The notes under the pieces were generated by a model that saw nothing but the letters and a program-made list of their open reading frames with translations, had not been told where the DNA came from and made no database searches. This document shows positions 18,998 through 25,498 of a DNA stretch of 43,619 nt, piece after piece. Position 1 is the first letter of the stretch. Every line of letters starts with the position of its first letter. A program made the translations under genes and the position numbers. Source of the stretch: Anaerolineales bacterium. GTDB taxonomy: Bacteria; Chloroflexota; Anaerolineae; Anaerolineales; Villigracilaceae. The DNA lies in assembly GCA_013360875.1 (NCBI GenBank), contig JABWAU010000018.1:1-43619 (forward strand). Reading direction: 5' to 3'.

Positions 18998-19321
18998 ATG
19001 CCGATAACGAAAACCGATAAAATAAACCGTAACTTCTTCCTGGGCTTCATCCGTCTGCACCTCCTGCATCATGCCTCGGTTGAACCCATCTTCGGATTGG
19101 ACATGATCCGCGAACTGGGAAGGCATGGCTACAGCCTCAGCCCTGGTACGTTGTATCCTATCCTGCACGGCCTTGAACGGGACGGTTTTCTTGAGTCCCA
19201 AAAACAGGTGGTGGAGGGGAAGGTCCGCAAGTATTACGTCATCACCACGCCGGGGCGGGAAGCGCTCAAGGATGCGATGGCGAAAGTCCGCGAGTTATTT
19301 GACGAAATCAACACTGATTGA
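18998..19321 (+). CDS. PadR-family transcription regulator
   Basis: This 107-residue protein is a single winged HTH of the PadR type. FGLDMIRELGRHGYSLSPGT and LYPILHGLERDGFLES (residues 32-68) are the family signature, followed by the wing VRKYYVITTPGREAL. PadR proteins repress neighbouring genes and respond to small molecules. It is divergent from nrfHA and 11 nt ahead of the TauE/SafE gene, so it may control either. Its effector cannot be read from the sequence. Confidence 0.9.
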   Translation: MPITKTDKINRNFFLGFIRLHLLHHASVEPIFGLDMIRELGRHGYSLSPGTLYPILHGLERDGFLESQKQVVEGKVRKYYVITTPGREALKDAMAKVRELFDEINTD

Positions 19322-19332
19322 GGAGTCTCATC

Positions 19333-20115
19333 ATGGAATATCTGGTTGTCTGCCTTGTGGCGGTTTTGATCTCCGCGCTCACATTGTTTTCAGGCTTCGG
19401 GCTGGGAACGGTTCTCATGCCAGCCTTTGCGTTGTTTTTTCCGGTGCCGGTCGCCGTTGCCGCAACAGCAGTCGTCCACCTGGCAAATAACATCTTCAAG
19501 GTGTTTCTGGTAGGCAGGAAGGCGGATTGGGGTGTCGTCTGGCGCTTTGCCGCGCCCGCTGTGATTGCCGCCATGCTCGGGGCGGCTTTGTTGGATCTGT
19601 TTGCCGGTATGCCTGCCCTGTACACCTACTCGTTGGGCGGTCGGGTGATTGAAGTAACCGTCATCAAACTGGTGATTGGCATCCTGATCGTTCTGTTTGC
19701 ATTGTTCGAGTTGATCCCTTATTTTGGAAACCTGGCTTTCGATCGCAAGTACCTGCCATTGGGCGGACTGCTTTCCGGTTTCTTTGGCGGCTTGTCGGGT
19801 AACCAGGGGGCGTTGCGTTCGGCGTTCCTGCTCAAGGCAGGCTTGAACAAGGAAGCCTTCATTGGAACTGGAACCGTTTCGGCGGTGATTGTGGATGCGG
19901 CGCGTCTGCTGGTTTACGGATTGAGTTTCTACGCTGTCAGCTTTTCCGGCGTGCGCGAAATTGGCGGGTTGGTGTTCGCCGCCACCTTTGCCGCGTTTCT
20001 CGGCGCGTTTATCGGCTCGCGGTTGGTCAAAAAGATCACACTTCGCACTTTGCAGATCATCGTCGGTGTGATGTTGATTCTGGTCGGGTTTGGAATGGCA
20101 ACTGGTCTGTTCTGA
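19333..20115 (+). CDS. TauE/SafE-family membrane permease
   Basis: The protein has 260 residues and about eight hydrophobic helices. The N-terminal LVAVLISALTLFSGFGLG and the internal repeat GGLLSGFFGGLSGNQGALR match the two halves of TauE/SafE transporters, which export or import sulfite, sulfoacetate or related anions. GAGGAG precedes the ATG at 19333. It follows PadR at 11 nt and precedes chrA and the DsrE gene. A sulfur anion substrate fits that context but is inference. Confidence 0.88.
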   Translation: MEYLVVCLVAVLISALTLFSGFGLGTVLMPAFALFFPVPVAVAATAVVHLANNIFKVFLVGRKADWGVVWRFAAPAVIAAMLGAALLDLFAGMPALYTYSLGGRVIEVTVIKLVIGILIVLFALFELIPYFGNLAFDRKYLPLGGLLSGFFGGLSGNQGALRSAFLLKAGLNKEAFIGTGTVSAVIVDAARLLVYGLSFYAVSFSGVREIGGLVFAATFAAFLGAFIGSRLVKKITLRTLQIIVGVMLILVGFGMATGLF

Positions 20116-20231: not shown

Positions 20232-21350
20232 GTGCCCCCTGCTTTAGAAGTATTCGCCTCCTTTCTTAAACTCGGCTTCACTGCCTTTGGCGGGCCCGCC
20301 GCGCACATCGGCATGTTCCGCGACGAGTTCGTCCATCGCCGCAAATGGCTAACCGACGAAGCCTTCCTCGACCTGCTCGGCGCGACCAACCTCATCCCCG
20401 GTCCCAACTCAACCGAGATGGCGATCCACATTGGCTTTTTGCGCGCGGGCTGGGCGGGTCTCATTGCGGGCGGGCTGGCATTCACTCTTCCAGCCATGTT
20501 GATCGTGCTGGTCTTCGCCTGGCTCTACGTGGAATACGGTTCCACACCTCAAGCATCGTGGCTGCTCTACGGAGTCAAACCCGTGATGATCGCCATCATC
20601 CTGCAAGCCCTGTGGGAACTCGGGCGCAAAGCCATCAAAGGGAAATTGACTCTCGCAATCGGGATTGTCTGTATCGTTTTGTACTTCCTCGGTGTGAACG
20701 AAGTGTTGCTTCTCTTCGCAGGCGGATTAACACTCATGCTCATCCAAAACTGGACTCGACTGCGTGAGGCGAAACCTTCCATTCTGCTCCCGCTTCTTCC
20801 CGCGCTGACAGCTGCTCCCGTTTCATTTAGTTTATCCACCCTGTTCCTGACCTTCCTCAAGATCGGCGCGATCTTATATGGCAGTGGTTATGTGCTGGTC
20901 GCTTTTCTGCGCGCTGATTTTGTCGAACGCCTCGGCTGGCTGACCGAACAACAACTGATAGACGCCATCGCCATCGGGCAGATCACACCGGGACCATTGT
21001 TCACCTCTGCGACCTTCATCGGCTATCTGCTCGGCGGAGTCCCTGCCGCATTGATCGCCACACTCGGAATTTTTCTGCCTTCCTATATCTTCGTTGCCAT
21101 GAGCAATCCGATCATTTCAAAATTGCGGGCATCCGCGTGGGCTGGCAGTTTGCTGGATGGAGTGATCGTCGCTTCATTAGGCTTGATGGCGGCGGTCACA
21201 TTTCAACTTGGGTTGGCTTCGCTGATTGACCTGCCGACGATTGTCATTTTCGGGCTATCCGCCATTCTATTGTTTCGATATAGAGTCAATACTACATGGT
21301 TGATCGTTGGTGGTGCGCTCATTGGTTTCATCACATCAACACTCAACTGA
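20232..21350 (+). CDS. chrA: ChrA-family chromate/anion transporter
   Basis: This 372-residue protein is the long, two-domain CHR type. Domain one starts FLKLGFTAFGGPAAHIGMFR and has NLIPGPNSTEMAIHIGF. Domain two starts FLKIGAILYGSGYVLVAFL and has GQITPGPLFTSATFIGYLLG. About ten membrane helices are visible. Family members export chromate and sulfate-like oxyanions. The GTG at 20232 is the start, with AGAGGAAAA upstream. It sits between TauE/SafE and the DsrE-like gene, which starts 15 nt after its stop. Confidence 0.88.
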   Translation: MPPALEVFASFLKLGFTAFGGPAAHIGMFRDEFVHRRKWLTDEAFLDLLGATNLIPGPNSTEMAIHIGFLRAGWAGLIAGGLAFTLPAMLIVLVFAWLYVEYGSTPQASWLLYGVKPVMIAIILQALWELGRKAIKGKLTLAIGIVCIVLYFLGVNEVLLLFAGGLTLMLIQNWTRLREAKPSILLPLLPALTAAPVSFSLSTLFLTFLKIGAILYGSGYVLVAFLRADFVERLGWLTEQQLIDAIAIGQITPGPLFTSATFIGYLLGGVPAALIATLGIFLPSYIFVAMSNPIISKLRASAWAGSLLDGVIVASLGLMAAVTFQLGLASLIDLPTIVIFGLSAILLFRYRVNTTWLIVGGALIGFITSTLN

Positions 21351-21365
21351 TTTCAAGGAGAAAAA

Positions 21366-21713
21366 ATGAATTGCCTGTTCGTCATCAACGACGCGCCGTA
21401 TGGGGACGAGCGTCCATACAATGCCTTGCGCCACGCCATGAACCTGGTCAAGCGCGAGGGTGTGCAGTTAAAAGTGTTCCTGGTCGCGGATGCGGTCTAC
21501 TGTGCTCGCAAGGATCAGAAAACGCCTGAGGGCTACTACAACATCGAGCGCATGGTCAAATCGTTGGCGAAACGCGGCAAAGTCGCTACCTGAGGCACAT
21601 GCTGCGAACCCCGAGGTCTCGGGGCGGAGGAACTAACCGAGGGTGTGGAAATGGGCAGCATGGATCTGCTCGGTGATTGGACGATGGAGGCGGATCAAGT
21701 GATTGTGTATTGA
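21366..21713 (+). CDS. DsrE-like sulfur-relay protein with in-frame UGA (candidate selenoprotein)
   Basis: AAGGAG precedes the ATG. The first 75 codons read a DsrE fold (MNCLFVINDAPYGDERPYNA, VFLVADAVYC, TPEGYYNIERMVKSL). A TGA at 21591-21593 follows KVAT, and the same frame continues GTCCEPRGLGAEELTEGVE to LLGDWTMEADQVIVY and a TGA at 21711. The joined length of 115 residues is that of DsrE family members. In homologues the position before GTC is a Cys, so UGA replaces Cys and gives a U-x-x-C pair. A GC-rich hairpin with loop AGGTCT lies just downstream. DsrE-like selenoproteins are known. The alternative is a point-mutated pseudogene. It is cotranscribed with chrA. Confidence 0.75.
21609..21624 (+). 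promoter_or_regulatory. SECIS-like hairpin
   Basis: CCCCGA-GGTC-TCGGGG lies 15 nt after the in-frame TGA, with the loop starting 21 nt from it. The apical sequence AGGTCT is the one I recall for the E. coli fdhF SECIS. Spacing and a G-U in the loop fit the bacterial SECIS model; a bulged U in the stem is not seen. Confidence 0.65.
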
Positions 21714-22072
21714 CCAGCCTCATCTGCCAATGGAGGGATATTTCCCCTGGCAAAACAGGGGAAAACGCAACTACCCCTCTTGCTTTGGGGAGTCTACAAT
21801 CATGCTGTAATAAGAATTCTCTTTTCAGGGTTTTTCAAAATCCGGAGCGGGCACTCCGGGTTTTGAATTTAAGGGACGTAAGTGCAGGCGACCATCTCAA
21901 GACAAAATAAGGAAATTCTCCCCTGTTTTATCCGGGGAGGATTCCCCTGCATTTAACTGGATTTAATCTCTACAATGAAAGAAAGGGATTCCAACGATCC
22001 CCATTGCCATGAACGAATTGGACGCCAAATACAAACCGTTCATGGTGTATACCCCAAATTAAGGAGAATGCC
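21714..22072. promoter_or_regulatory. Regulatory region of the octahaem cytochrome gene
   Basis: No gene is seen. TTCCCCT words occur at 21742, 21942 and, inverted, at 21757. TACCCCT, a full match to the NarL heptamer TACYYMT, lies at 21772, and CTCCCCT at 21918. A terminator-like hairpin is at 21836-21866. TACAAT at 21971-21976 is the likely -10; its -35 is weak, as expected for an activated promoter. The leader would be about 90 nt. Confidence 0.5.
21836..21866 (+). terminator. Terminator after the DsrE-like gene
   Basis: CCGGAG, loop CGGGCA, CTCCGG, then GTTTTGAATTT; flanking A and T runs extend the stem. It separates the chrA-dsrE unit from the cytochrome gene. Confidence 0.7.
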
Positions 22073-23344
22073 ATGTCAAAAAAGACGATCTTCGTCATCG
22101 CATCAGGCCTTTTGTTACTGGCGCTTGCCCTGGCTGGCTGCGCAGGTCCGGCTGGACCGGCGGGTCCGCAAGGTCCCAAAGGTGACCCGGGTCCAGCAGG
22201 ACCTCCCGGCCCGGCTGGTGCAGCCGCCGAGGTCAAGGGTGCGGAATACGTTGGCTCCGCCGCGTGTTCGCAATGCCATGAGGCGCTTTACAACACCTTC
22301 ATGATGTCCGGTCATCCCTGGAAATTGAACAAGGTGGTTGATGGAAAACAGCCTGCCTACCCGTTTGCCGACAAGAACGGCGAGATTCAACTGCCCGATG
22401 GCTACACCTGGGATGATATTTCTTATGTCATCGGCGGCTACAAATGGAAAGCCCGCTTCATGGACCAGAACGGCTACATCATCACCGCACCCAAAGGCGA
22501 GGCGCCGGATGCTGAAAAGCACAAAGATTACCTTAACCAGTGGAACTATGCCAACGCCTATGTTGGCAAGGACGCCGGCTGGGTAAAATACAACTCCGGC
22601 AAGACCACCAAGGACCAGCCCGGTCTGGTCTATAATTGCGGCACCTGCCATACCACCGGTTACTCCGCCTGGCCCCCCGATTCTCATCAGGACGATATGC
22701 CCGGCATCGTCGGTACCTGGGCTGAACCCGGAATCCAATGCGAAGCCTGCCACGGACCAGGAAGCCTGCACGCCAGCGATCCGCACGGCGTTGCCCTCGA
22801 AGTCGAGCGTTCCTCAGCGTTGTGCGGCAAATGCCACGACCGCGGCGCCCAGGAATTTGTAGACGCCTCCGGCGGCTTCATCGAACATCACGAGCAGTAT
22901 GAGGAGTTGTTCCAGTCCAAGCACATCACCATTGACTGCGTTGTTTGCCACGACCCGCATGCTGGAGTCGAGCAACTGCGCCAGGCTGGTAAACAGACCA
23001 CGCGGACGCAATGTGAGAACTGCCACTTCAAGGAAGCACAGAACCGCAAAAGTATGGAAAGCCTCGCCTGTACGGACTGCCACATGCCCTTTATCGGCAA
23101 GAGTGCATGGGGCAATGCTGATACCTTCCGCGGCGATGTGCGCACCCACTTGATGGCGATCGATGTCACCACCTTCGACCAGTTCTATACGGTCAAGGAG
23201 GGCGATGTCGAAAAGACCTATGCCCTTTCACAGATCGGCTTGAACTTTGCATGCAAATCTTGTCACGGCCCGTCCGGCATGTTGCCGCTGGATGACGCCA
23301 AGTTGCAAGAAGAGGCCACTGACTTCCACACGTCCGCCAAATAA
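22073..23344 (+). CDS. Octahaem c-type cytochrome lipoprotein with collagen-like stalk
   Basis: The protein has 423 residues. A lipoprotein signal ends LALAGC (Cys 23). Residues 25-52 are about nine Gly-X-Y triplets (GPAGPAGPQGPKGDPGPAG...), a collagen-like segment. Eight CxxCH haem motifs follow at 65, 189, 223, 251, 289, 314, 333 and 394. The first, with YVGSAACSQCHEALYNTFM, resembles cytochrome c554-type multihaem proteins. No CxxCK motif is present, so it is not an Nrf or Otr type enzyme by that mark. It probably carries electrons at the outer surface. AAGGAG precedes the ATG. The NarL/NarX-like genes converge on it. Confidence 0.9.
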   Translation: MSKKTIFVIASGLLLLALALAGCAGPAGPAGPQGPKGDPGPAGPPGPAGAAAEVKGAEYVGSAACSQCHEALYNTFMMSGHPWKLNKVVDGKQPAYPFADKNGEIQLPDGYTWDDISYVIGGYKWKARFMDQNGYIITAPKGEAPDAEKHKDYLNQWNYANAYVGKDAGWVKYNSGKTTKDQPGLVYNCGTCHTTGYSAWPPDSHQDDMPGIVGTWAEPGIQCEACHGPGSLHASDPHGVALEVERSSALCGKCHDRGAQEFVDASGGFIEHHEQYEELFQSKHITIDCVVCHDPHAGVEQLRQAGKQTTRTQCENCHFKEAQNRKSMESLACTDCHMPFIGKSAWGNADTFRGDVRTHLMAIDVTTFDQFYTVKEGDVEKTYALSQIGLNFACKSCHGPSGMLPLDDAKLQEEATDFHTSAK

Positions 23345-23393: not shown

Positions 23394-23430
23394 GAAGCCC
23401 CGAAGTAGATGCTCCGGGGCTTCGCTTTTA
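23394..23430. terminator. Terminator between the cytochrome and response regulator genes
   Basis: GAAGCCCCG (23394-23402) pairs with CGGGGCTTC (23415-23423), then GCTTTTA. The arms are GC-rich and can serve both converging genes. Confidence 0.75.
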
Positions 23431-24093
23431 TCCCTCTCGTCCCATGCGGTCGAATAGATGATGTTCATACGCGTATGCCGCCAGTTCGATGCGGTTATTC
23501 ATGTGCAGTTTCTTGAAAATGTTGCTGACGTAGTTCCCGACGGTCTTCTCGCTCAGCTTCAACAGCGCGGCGATTTCTGAATTGGTCTTTCCTTTCGCAA
23601 GATGTACCAGGACCTCCATTTCACGGTCTGAAAGATCGCGGAAAGCATCCTCGTCCGATTTCCGTTCCGCCTCGCGGACACGCGATAACAGTCGCGCAGT
23701 CGTGGCAGGATCGAGCAACGCTTCGCCCCTCGCCGCCGCCCGGATCGCCCTCAAAAGCTCTTCATTCCCGACCTGCTTTAATACATATCCCACTGCGCCC
23801 GCGCGGATGGCGCGCACGACCAGTTCGTCATCCGCAAAGGATGTAAGCATGACCACCTTGCAGGATGGAATGTTCCTTGTGATCTGCGCGGCGGCTTCGA
23901 TGCCTCCCTCGCCTGGCAGGCGGATATCCATCAACACCACATCAGGCAGGAGATTTTCAACCATTTTTACGCCTTCCCCTGCCGTGCTGGCTTCACCGAC
24001 CACTTCCATGTCTGGCTGGTCGTTGAGCAGGGTCATCAACCCCAAGCGGACGATGTCATGGTCGTCTACGATGAGAATACGGGTCTTGGTCAT
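23428..24093 (-). CDS. NarL/FixJ-type response regulator
   Basis: This 221-residue protein has a receiver domain (residues 5-120; ILIVDDHD, phosphoacceptor Asp in VVLMDIRLPG, Lys in VLKQVG). A LuxR-type HTH follows (about 150-208; LSDREMEVLVHLAKGKTNSE, then LSEKTVGNYVSNIFKKL). It begins 4 nt after the histidine kinase gene, so the two are cotranscribed. NarL-like heptamers lie before the facing cytochrome gene, which makes that gene a plausible target. Confidence 0.93.
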   Translation of the reverse strand: MTKTRILIVDDHDIVRLGLMTLLNDQPDMEVVGEASTAGEGVKMVENLLPDVVLMDIRLPGEGGIEAAAQITRNIPSCKVVMLTSFADDELVVRAIRAGAVGYVLKQVGNEELLRAIRAAARGEALLDPATTARLLSRVREAERKSDEDAFRDLSDREMEVLVHLAKGKTNSEIAALLKLSEKTVGNYVSNIFKKLHMNNRIELAAYAYEHHLFDRMGREG

Positions 24094-24097
24094 GAGG

Positions 24098-25498
24098 TTA
24101 TTGATCCATCCAGGGCAGGGTGAGTTTTACGGTTGTGCCTTTGTCGTTTGCGAAAGTCAAATTGCCGTTCAGCAGGCGGGCGCGGTCGCGCATGTTACGC
24201 AACCCATAACCGGCCTTTTGTTCTGAGGAAAAACCAACCCCGTCATCCATGATGACAATGTGGAGTTGCCCGTCCAGGTCCCGCGCTTCGATCTTCACGT
24301 TCTTTGCTTGTGCGTGGCGGATAATATTTGCCATTGCTTCGTTCACGATTGCAAGGATGTGACCGGTGCGAATGGACGACAACCCCCTGTCTGCCGGGAG
24401 ATCGACCTTCAGTGCAATATTCACCAGGGACGAATAATACGGATCGTTTGCAATCTGCCATAAAAGCGCAGGCAGGGATTCGACCGGGTTTGTCGAATCC
24501 GATTGAAGGTCAGAGAGGTTGCGGCGCAGGTCGGCGATGGCGTCGTTCAGGACGAGCACCGATTTTTCGAGGCGGGATCCGATTTCACTTTTCGGGTCTG
24601 CCAGTCTGGATGCGGATTCGACCAGCAATCCCGCAGTGTACACCTTTTGAATGGCGCCGTCATGCAGATCGCGCGCCAGCCGTTCGCGTTCGGCGGTAAG
24701 GATGTGACGCTGTTCCAGTTCTTCGATGCGGCGCGCAGTCTCCACATCGAAGATTTCCAGCGCCCGGATGAAGGTGACCACCAGGATCAGACCGGTCAGG
24801 GAGCGGAAAACCAGGGGCGGAATTCCGAAGAATTCTGTGAAGGTGACGCGGTTGAGGATGTTTCCGGGAAAGAATTCCACCGGTGGGGGGATCAGCCCGC
24901 TCAACAGGGCATAGATGCCTAGGGTGATCCCCGCCGCTTGCAGGGTCAGAACGATACGGGGGACATTCAATGGTTTGATGCGAAGCAGAGTGTGCCGACG
25001 CAACCCGTATGCCGCCAGCAGTCCACCGGGGAATCCGATGAAATAGCGGGCGAGGGCGTTCGCTGGGTATCTCCACAGGCGTTCGTCGGTTATCTCGGGA
25101 GGGATCATGCTGATCGTGAGAATGAGCCAGGCTGTAAAAAGAATTGCTGTGAACCGGTGATGCCAGGTTTGGCGTTTGTCCTGGCTGAGCAGCGCGAACC
25201 CAAACTCCATAAGGAAACTGTATGAACCTGCAAGCAAGAGCAGTTGCAGAAATTCCAGGATGCGCACAGTCTGCTGGTTCAAGTACTCAGCCTGAATCGG
25301 AATGAAGACTTCGCCCCATTCGTGCAAGCCATGCGTAATCCCAAACGCTGCCAGCCAGCGCAGGCTCCGCGCCAATTCGAGGCGTGAACTTTGCCGGGTA
25401 TACAGGGTGATGGCAAAGCCGAGGATGAAAAAAACCAGCCCGTAAACAAAATAGATGATGGAGCGGTTGATGGCAAAAAACTCGGCAATTGAGATCAT
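24098..25498 (-). CDS. NarX-like membrane histidine kinase (HisKA_3)
   Basis: The protein has 466 residues. About seven hydrophobic helices occupy residues 10-250. A short coiled-coil leads into the HisKA_3 dimerisation helix with ERERLARDLHDGAIQKVY (phospho-His in RDLHDG). The ATPase domain has NEAMANIIRHA, DDGVGFSSE and GYGLRNMRDRARLL. The 7TM input domain has no recognised ligand site. It should phosphorylate the response regulator encoded 4 nt downstream. TAGAAT six nt before its ATG suggests a leaderless mRNA. Confidence 0.92.
   Translation of the reverse strand: MISIAEFFAINRSIIYFVYGLVFFILGFAITLYTRQSSRLELARSLRWLAAFGITHGLHEWGEVFIPIQAEYLNQQTVRILEFLQLLLLAGSYSFLMEFGFALLSQDKRQTWHHRFTAILFTAWLILTISMIPPEITDERLWRYPANALARYFIGFPGGLLAAYGLRRHTLLRIKPLNVPRIVLTLQAAGITLGIYALLSGLIPPPVEFFPGNILNRVTFTEFFGIPPLVFRSLTGLILVVTFIRALEIFDVETARRIEELEQRHILTAERERLARDLHDGAIQKVYTAGLLVESASRLADPKSEIGSRLEKSVLVLNDAIADLRRNLSDLQSDSTNPVESLPALLWQIANDPYYSSLVNIALKVDLPADRGLSSIRTGHILAIVNEAMANIIRHAQAKNVKIEARDLDGQLHIVIMDDGVGFSSEQKAGYGLRNMRDRARLLNGNLTFANDKGTTVKLTLPWMDQ

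Follow-up and report, generated by a model that had tools for sequence, protein, structure and literature searches.

Does a DsrE-family reading frame that is interrupted by a TGA codon in an Anaerolineales genome encode a selenoprotein, and if so, what might selenium do there? The window analyzed here is the whole stretch of 43,619 nt, in which the frame at 21366-21713 runs for 75 residues to a TGA (21591-21593) and then for a further 39 codons to a terminal TGA (21711-21713). When the first TGA was translated as an amino acid, the product matched PF02635 (DsrE) over residues 1-114 (63.7 bits against a curated cut-off of 22.7; E 2.3e-17), and thus belongs to the DsrE/DsrF-like family, its match covering the entire domain. 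The preliminary description of this DNA had proposed that the frame runs on for 39 codons to a total of 115 residues, with the UGA at a position where relatives have Cys. Both proposals were borne out: the relatives that have no stop encode Cys at residue 76, by TGC or TGT, and the motif is therefore UxxC. We consider it highly probable (about 95%) that the gene encodes a DsrE-family protein with Sec at residue 76, a reading that rests on comparative sequence evidence. Ordinary annotation would cut the gene at the apparent stop, leaving 75 residues. The features of the region are as follows.

18998..19321, + strand: PadR-type regulator (PF03551)
19318..20115, + strand: TauE/SafE-type permease (PF01925)
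20232..21350, + strand: ChrA-type chromate transporter, directly upstream (PF02417, TIGR00937)
21355..21360, + strand: AAGGAG, likely ribosome-binding site, read from the sequence
21366..21713, + strand: predicted selenoprotein gene of the DsrE family (115 aa including Sec76), ending in TGA at 21711-21713
21591..21593, + strand: in-frame UGA, predicted Sec76 of UxxC (the equivalent codon is TGA in 55 distinct genes and TGC/TGT in the Cys relatives)
21609..21624, + strand: SECIS-type hairpin CCCCGA-GGTC-TCGGGG, apex AGGTCT (conservation across Sec genes, with fdhF as control)
22073-23344, + strand: multiheme cytochrome ORF, 8 CxxCH by motif count
23428-25498: LuxR-type response regulator and kinase (two-component pair)

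First, we examined how often the TGA occurs among relatives. Scanning genome contigs yielded 37 loci, comprising 18 with TGA (L021-L038), 18 with Cys (L039-L056) and one frameshifted locus with Cys (L057). Among 400 genomes of the phylum, the gene was found in 31, of which 5 had the TGA and 26 had no stop. Among 400 genomes of the order it was present in 59, of which 47 had at least one copy with an internal TGA and 12 had none; in this count the place of the TGA was confirmed in the fetched loci only, and the stops of four copies (G560, G756 and the second copies of G600 and G623) were counted without their place. After near-copies had been collapsed, 64 rows of TGA loci yielded 55 distinct genes, i.e. 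46 (from 55 rows) that entered the register test described below and 9 recovered afterwards. Two rows do not enter the trees and later counts, namely the window itself (L058) and L060, which carries the same gene as L029. All 55 distinct genes carried TGA at this codon (TAA 0, TAG 0), and all 55 had Cys at +3 of it. Two genomes contained two TGA-bearing copies each (G120, L061 and L133; G605, L130 and L131), as did that of L035/L036, and one (G533) combined a TGA copy (L092) with a Cys copy (L134).

These counts bear on the simplest alternative, namely that sequencing error, or nonsense mutation in a gene undergoing decay, produced the TGA. Additional stops do occur in a few relatives: L031 and its equal L099 have an in-frame TAG near the 3' end, the copy in G617 (L125) has two TGA and one TAA, and partial copies are present in G756 and G623. 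The Sec-form gene of L031/L099 may possibly be decaying or contain an error; L099 and L125 are counted among the 55. However, error or decay would have to produce TGA at this single codon in all 55 distinct genes, which come from many assemblies, while the protein is conserved on both sides of it and a downstream hairpin is conserved as well. The window gene is otherwise intact, with no other disrupted codon, and the relatives on the shared branch carry TGA rather than the TGC or TGT that would have spoken for a read-level error. We therefore regard this alternative as very improbable.

Second, the hairpin downstream of the UGA was analyzed. Its stem is formed by 21609-21614 and 21619-21624 (CCCCGA/TCGGGG), and the loop GGTC begins 21 nt after the UGA, the hairpin sequence and spacing being those given in the preliminary description. 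The apex AGGTCT had there been likened to that of E. coli fdhF, and the E. coli K-12 fdhF sequence confirmed the identity. The loop of the fdhF SECIS starts 18 nt after the UGA compared with 21 nt in the window gene, whose stem is shorter; moreover, 30 of the 55 Sec genes have the apex CGGGNT instead. In detail, AGGTCT was present in 22/55 genes, CGGGCT, CGGGTT or CGGGAT in 29/55 and other apices in 4/55, and the GG of the apex was found in every one of the 55. A 5-bp stem around the six-base apex was complete in 51/55 genes and had at least four pairs in 54/55, the exception being L118 with two of five pairs; because the sequences are related, these counts are not independent.

The central stem pair (nt 18/29) was C-G in 36, U-A in 17, U-G in 1 and C-A in 1 of the 55 Sec genes. 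On the 5' side the swap from C-G to U-A was mostly silent (GCC to GCT), whereas on the 3' side it replaced Gly86 (GGG) by Glu (GAG). At codon 86, each of the 37 Gly genes uses GGG and each of the 17 Glu genes uses GAG, such that the hairpin ties this residue to one or the other in 54/55 genes. The third base of codon 85 was C in 54/55 genes, although the codon specifies Leu, Phe, Ile or Val. Synonymous identity reached 1.00 at codons 85 and 86 only (mean 0.49; 22 Sec genes). On the supported branches of the tree, ~4/5 independent pairs agreed with covariation and none opposed it (p 0.125), too few for significance.

A register-specific stem test, which was chosen after the hairpin had been seen, found the complete 5-bp stem in 42 of 46 genes against 2.15 expected under synonymous recoding, whereas none of 32 distinct Cys relatives had even four of five pairs in that register. 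Among the 47 non-TGA loci, 33 (32 distinct) could be matched; the 14 that were missed comprised 12 with Cys at the site, one that was frameshifted (L086) and one in which the site was not found (L087). When the register was shifted by as much as 9 nt in the set of 22 genes, the stem was present in 20/22 genes at the true register and in at most 1/22 elsewhere. On the other hand, single genes gave little signal: stem length exceeded synonymous recoding at p<0.05 in 0/22 TGA genes vs 4/30 Cys genes, and the folding z-score averaged -0.63 in TGA genes vs 0.00 in Cys genes, which was not significant. The 30 Cys rows in these single-gene and register-slide tests include the frameshifted locus L057, which was kept out of the trees and the register test. 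An Rfam scan of 20500-22500 gave five matches, all under the gathering score and none of them SECIS. Thus, the hairpin signal resides in conservation across genes and not in single genes. As a set, these hairpins provide good natural data for SECIS recognition outside Proteobacteria.

Third, we searched for the Sec machinery in the source assembly (3.99 Mb in 208 contigs, 96.5% complete, 4.4% contaminated). All four components, selA, selB, selC (tRNA-Sec) and selD, were present. The tRNA-Sec scored 70.4 bits, with ARAGORN agreeing on the anticodon TCA, and SelB scored 345 bits; SelA was split between the ends of two contigs, with the first piece over the cut-off, and SelD (347.5 bits) carried an in-frame TGA. 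These genes lie on contigs other than that of the window, and their assignment to the genome assumes correct binning. This SelD, too, is a predicted selenoprotein, its UGA being followed by the hairpin AGCGC-GGAG-GCGCT (L019 1531-1581).

Across genomes, SelB was over the cut-off in 19 of 20 distinct other TGA-form genomes vs 3 of 19 Cys-form genomes (Fisher p 4e-7), a contrast that mixes phyla, and tRNA-Sec in 18 of 20 vs 4 of 19 (p 2e-5). Here G377 and G408, whose coordinates agree, were taken as one TGA-form genome, and the Cys-form genomes include that of the frameshifted L057. The TGA-form exceptions were G401 for SelB and G413 and G414 for tRNA-Sec, and each of the 20 had at least one of the two over the cut-off. 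SelB is the stricter test of the two, because it passed in 2/14 control genomes compared with 5/14 for tRNA-Sec. In the phylum sample, SelB was over the cut-off in 307 of 400 genomes, and a SelB match at E<=1e-60 was found in all 5 TGA genomes and in 19 of the 26 with the stop-free form. Therefore, Sec decoding accompanies the Sec form of the gene but does not predict it.

If UGA were decoded as another amino acid, through a code change or a suppressor, the frame would likewise be open. However, 5 of 12 long window ORFs checked terminate in TGA, as does the DsrE-family gene itself, tRNA-Sec, SelA, SelB and SelD are all present, and the hairpin is found in the TGA-bearing genes and in 0/32 Cys relatives, which makes such decoding most improbable. 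The Sec machinery, the 55 TGA genes and the conserved hairpin agree with the prediction, made at the outset, that the product is translated with Sec. In the proposed mechanism, SelB and Sec-tRNA would bind the hairpin directly after the UGA during translation, and Sec would be put in at position 76 in place of termination. When selenium is absent, only a 75-residue fragment would be made, lacking the reactive site.

With regard to the history of the site, the Sec rows formed one side of a branch supported at 99/95 in a tree of 22 Sec and 29 Cys rows, and again in a larger tree (91/95; 55 and 32 rows), in which the bootstrap was not fully settled. Therefore, a single Cys/Sec exchange would be the simplest history, to which the unrooted trees give no direction.

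DsrE-like selenoproteins as such had been said to be known, and the literature agrees. A DsrE-like UxxC selenoprotein, represented by two sequences in the Sargasso Sea set, has been in print since 2005 (PMC1088965), and such proteins were also reported from Desulfovibrio vulgaris (PMC1794560), from the GOS set as DsrE 1 and DsrE 2 (PMC2398784), and in a 2026 review that lists the family with PF02635 and UxxC and gives WP_014524487.1 for the D. vulgaris-type protein (PMC13188914). In addition, a DsrE-like domain with CGxC occurs in YedF, a protein linked to the use of selenium (PMC5322559). As far as the accessible text of PMC1794560 goes, Chloroflexi are given three selenoproteins of three families, unnamed there, and its single DsrE-like entry is that of D. 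vulgaris. The deep-Sep paper (PMC12013277) makes no mention of DsrE or Chloroflexi, and no description of a Chloroflexota DsrE-like Sec branch was found in the accessible parts of the open-licence PMC literature. The window gene has the features of the known proteins, with the TGA aligned with the Cys of homologs, a SECIS-type hairpin whose apical loop opens with G, and the Sec machinery. It shares with them the Pfam family, the UxxC motif, the Cys homologs and the SECIS-like hairpin after the UGA, a likeness drawn from published descriptions; on the other hand, the Chloroflexota branch is unnamed in the accessible text of those reports. What appears to be new is thus a large and coherent branch in Chloroflexota (Anaerolineae), which adds a well-supported, widespread group of predicted selenoproteins that annotation truncates to 75 residues.

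To what use selenium might be put is suggested by the fold. An AlphaFold2 model of the single chain, with Cys in place of Sec, had a pLDDT of 94.9. Since the model has a beta strand at 72-76 and a helix at 77-83, residue 76 closes the strand and directly precedes the helix. The best match in a structure search was E. coli YchN (1jx7, Z 19.6), followed by TusD (17.1) and DsrE (16.9), which were tied, and YchN was also the sole match in a PDB sequence search at E<=0.1 (1.9e-20). Being closest to YchN in both sequence and fold, with Cys (Sec)-x-x-Cys in place, the protein can be considered YchN-like; it has the UxxC where YchN has CxxC, and differs in having a predicted Sec where YchN has Cys. 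It also shares the fold of TusD (of TusBCD) and DsrE (of DsrEFH), and residue 76 aligned with the NIC cysteine of E. coli TusD, which is Cys78 by counting and the reactive position of that protein. However, TusD has CVAA with no second Cys, whereas both YchN and the window protein have one (Cys79 in the latter). The match to TIGR03012, the TusD/DsrE equivalog, reached 28.1 bits against a cut-off of 89.25, and unlike TusBCD/DsrEFH, there was no DsrE-family partner among the nine neighboring ORFs scanned.

According to the accessible text of PMC3397948, DsrE-Cys78 of Allochromatium vinosum (A. vinosum) bears a persulfide and hands its sulfur on to DsrC; the paper cites TusD-Cys78 as the sole Cys essential for transfer. 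A Salmonella ychN single mutant is described as resembling wild type (PMC3878590, likewise accessible in part). Because residue 76 occupies the Cys78 position of TusD/DsrE and Cys79 is present as in YchN, we infer a chemistry in which the selenol would attack a disulfide or sulfane sulfur and the product would be resolved by Cys79, which lies at +3 and could form a selenenylsulfide with Sec76. Among the possible chemistries, a selenol-based persulfide/disulfide reductase or sulfur carrier is one to which we give a substantial chance, albeit below even. The more specific proposal, that this Anaerolineales sulfur-relay protein holds sulfane sulfur on selenium (Se-S at the TusD-Cys78 position) instead of as a Cys persulfide, i.e. 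as a selenium-based sulfur carrier or persulfide reductase retained throughout the order, is doubtful. Sec at the persulfide-bearing site of a DsrE fold would offer a concrete test of why selenium is preferred in a sulfur-handling protein.

Finally, we considered whether the gene neighborhood points to a function. The ATG of the DsrE-family gene lies 15 nt past the ChrA stop and follows the AAGGAG, and co-transcription with ChrA is plausible. An operon with ChrA and TauE/SafE beside nitrite respiration had been proposed; the adjacency stands, but the functional weight placed on it does not. Among the first 22 other TGA loci, to which these counts refer as lower bounds since flanks were short in several, a ChrA relative was near the gene in two (directly upstream in L062; in L024 on the opposite strand, ~0.9 kb downstream), and a TauE or NrfA relative in none. 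One locus (L021) had PadR and two-component genes in common with the window. Among the stop-free loci, a ChrA relative adjoined the gene in L066 and a weak one lay ~3 kb off in L048. With the window included, no gene family was common to more than 4 of 23 TGA loci. Thus, the ChrA/TauE neighborhood is mostly not common to relatives and says little on function.

The same loci bear on the idea that the protein is a real selenoprotein whose main work is other than sulfur transfer, e.g. the handling of peroxide, heavy metals or oxyanions such as chromate and selenite. ChrA directly upstream in the window and in L062, and its relative beside the stop-free gene in L066, would fit such a role, and UxxC is a general redox motif (PMC1088965, in its accessible text). 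Against it stand the lack of a shared neighbor family and the match of fold and reactive position to sulfur-relay proteins. We hold a role of this kind to be possible, at roughly a third of the full weight.

Other observations concern the wider surroundings of the gene. The cytochrome ORF at 22073-23344 begins with a lipoprotein-like signal, followed by a collagen-like Gly-Pro-rich repeat (PF01391, below cut-off), and a cytochrome c552-type gene (PF02335) lies farther off on the opposite strand. Between the selenoprotein and cytochrome genes, 21735-21949 contains three direct repeats of the CCCCTG type along with several inverted repeats, as well as a heptamer, TACCCCT at 21772, which we take to be NarL-like.
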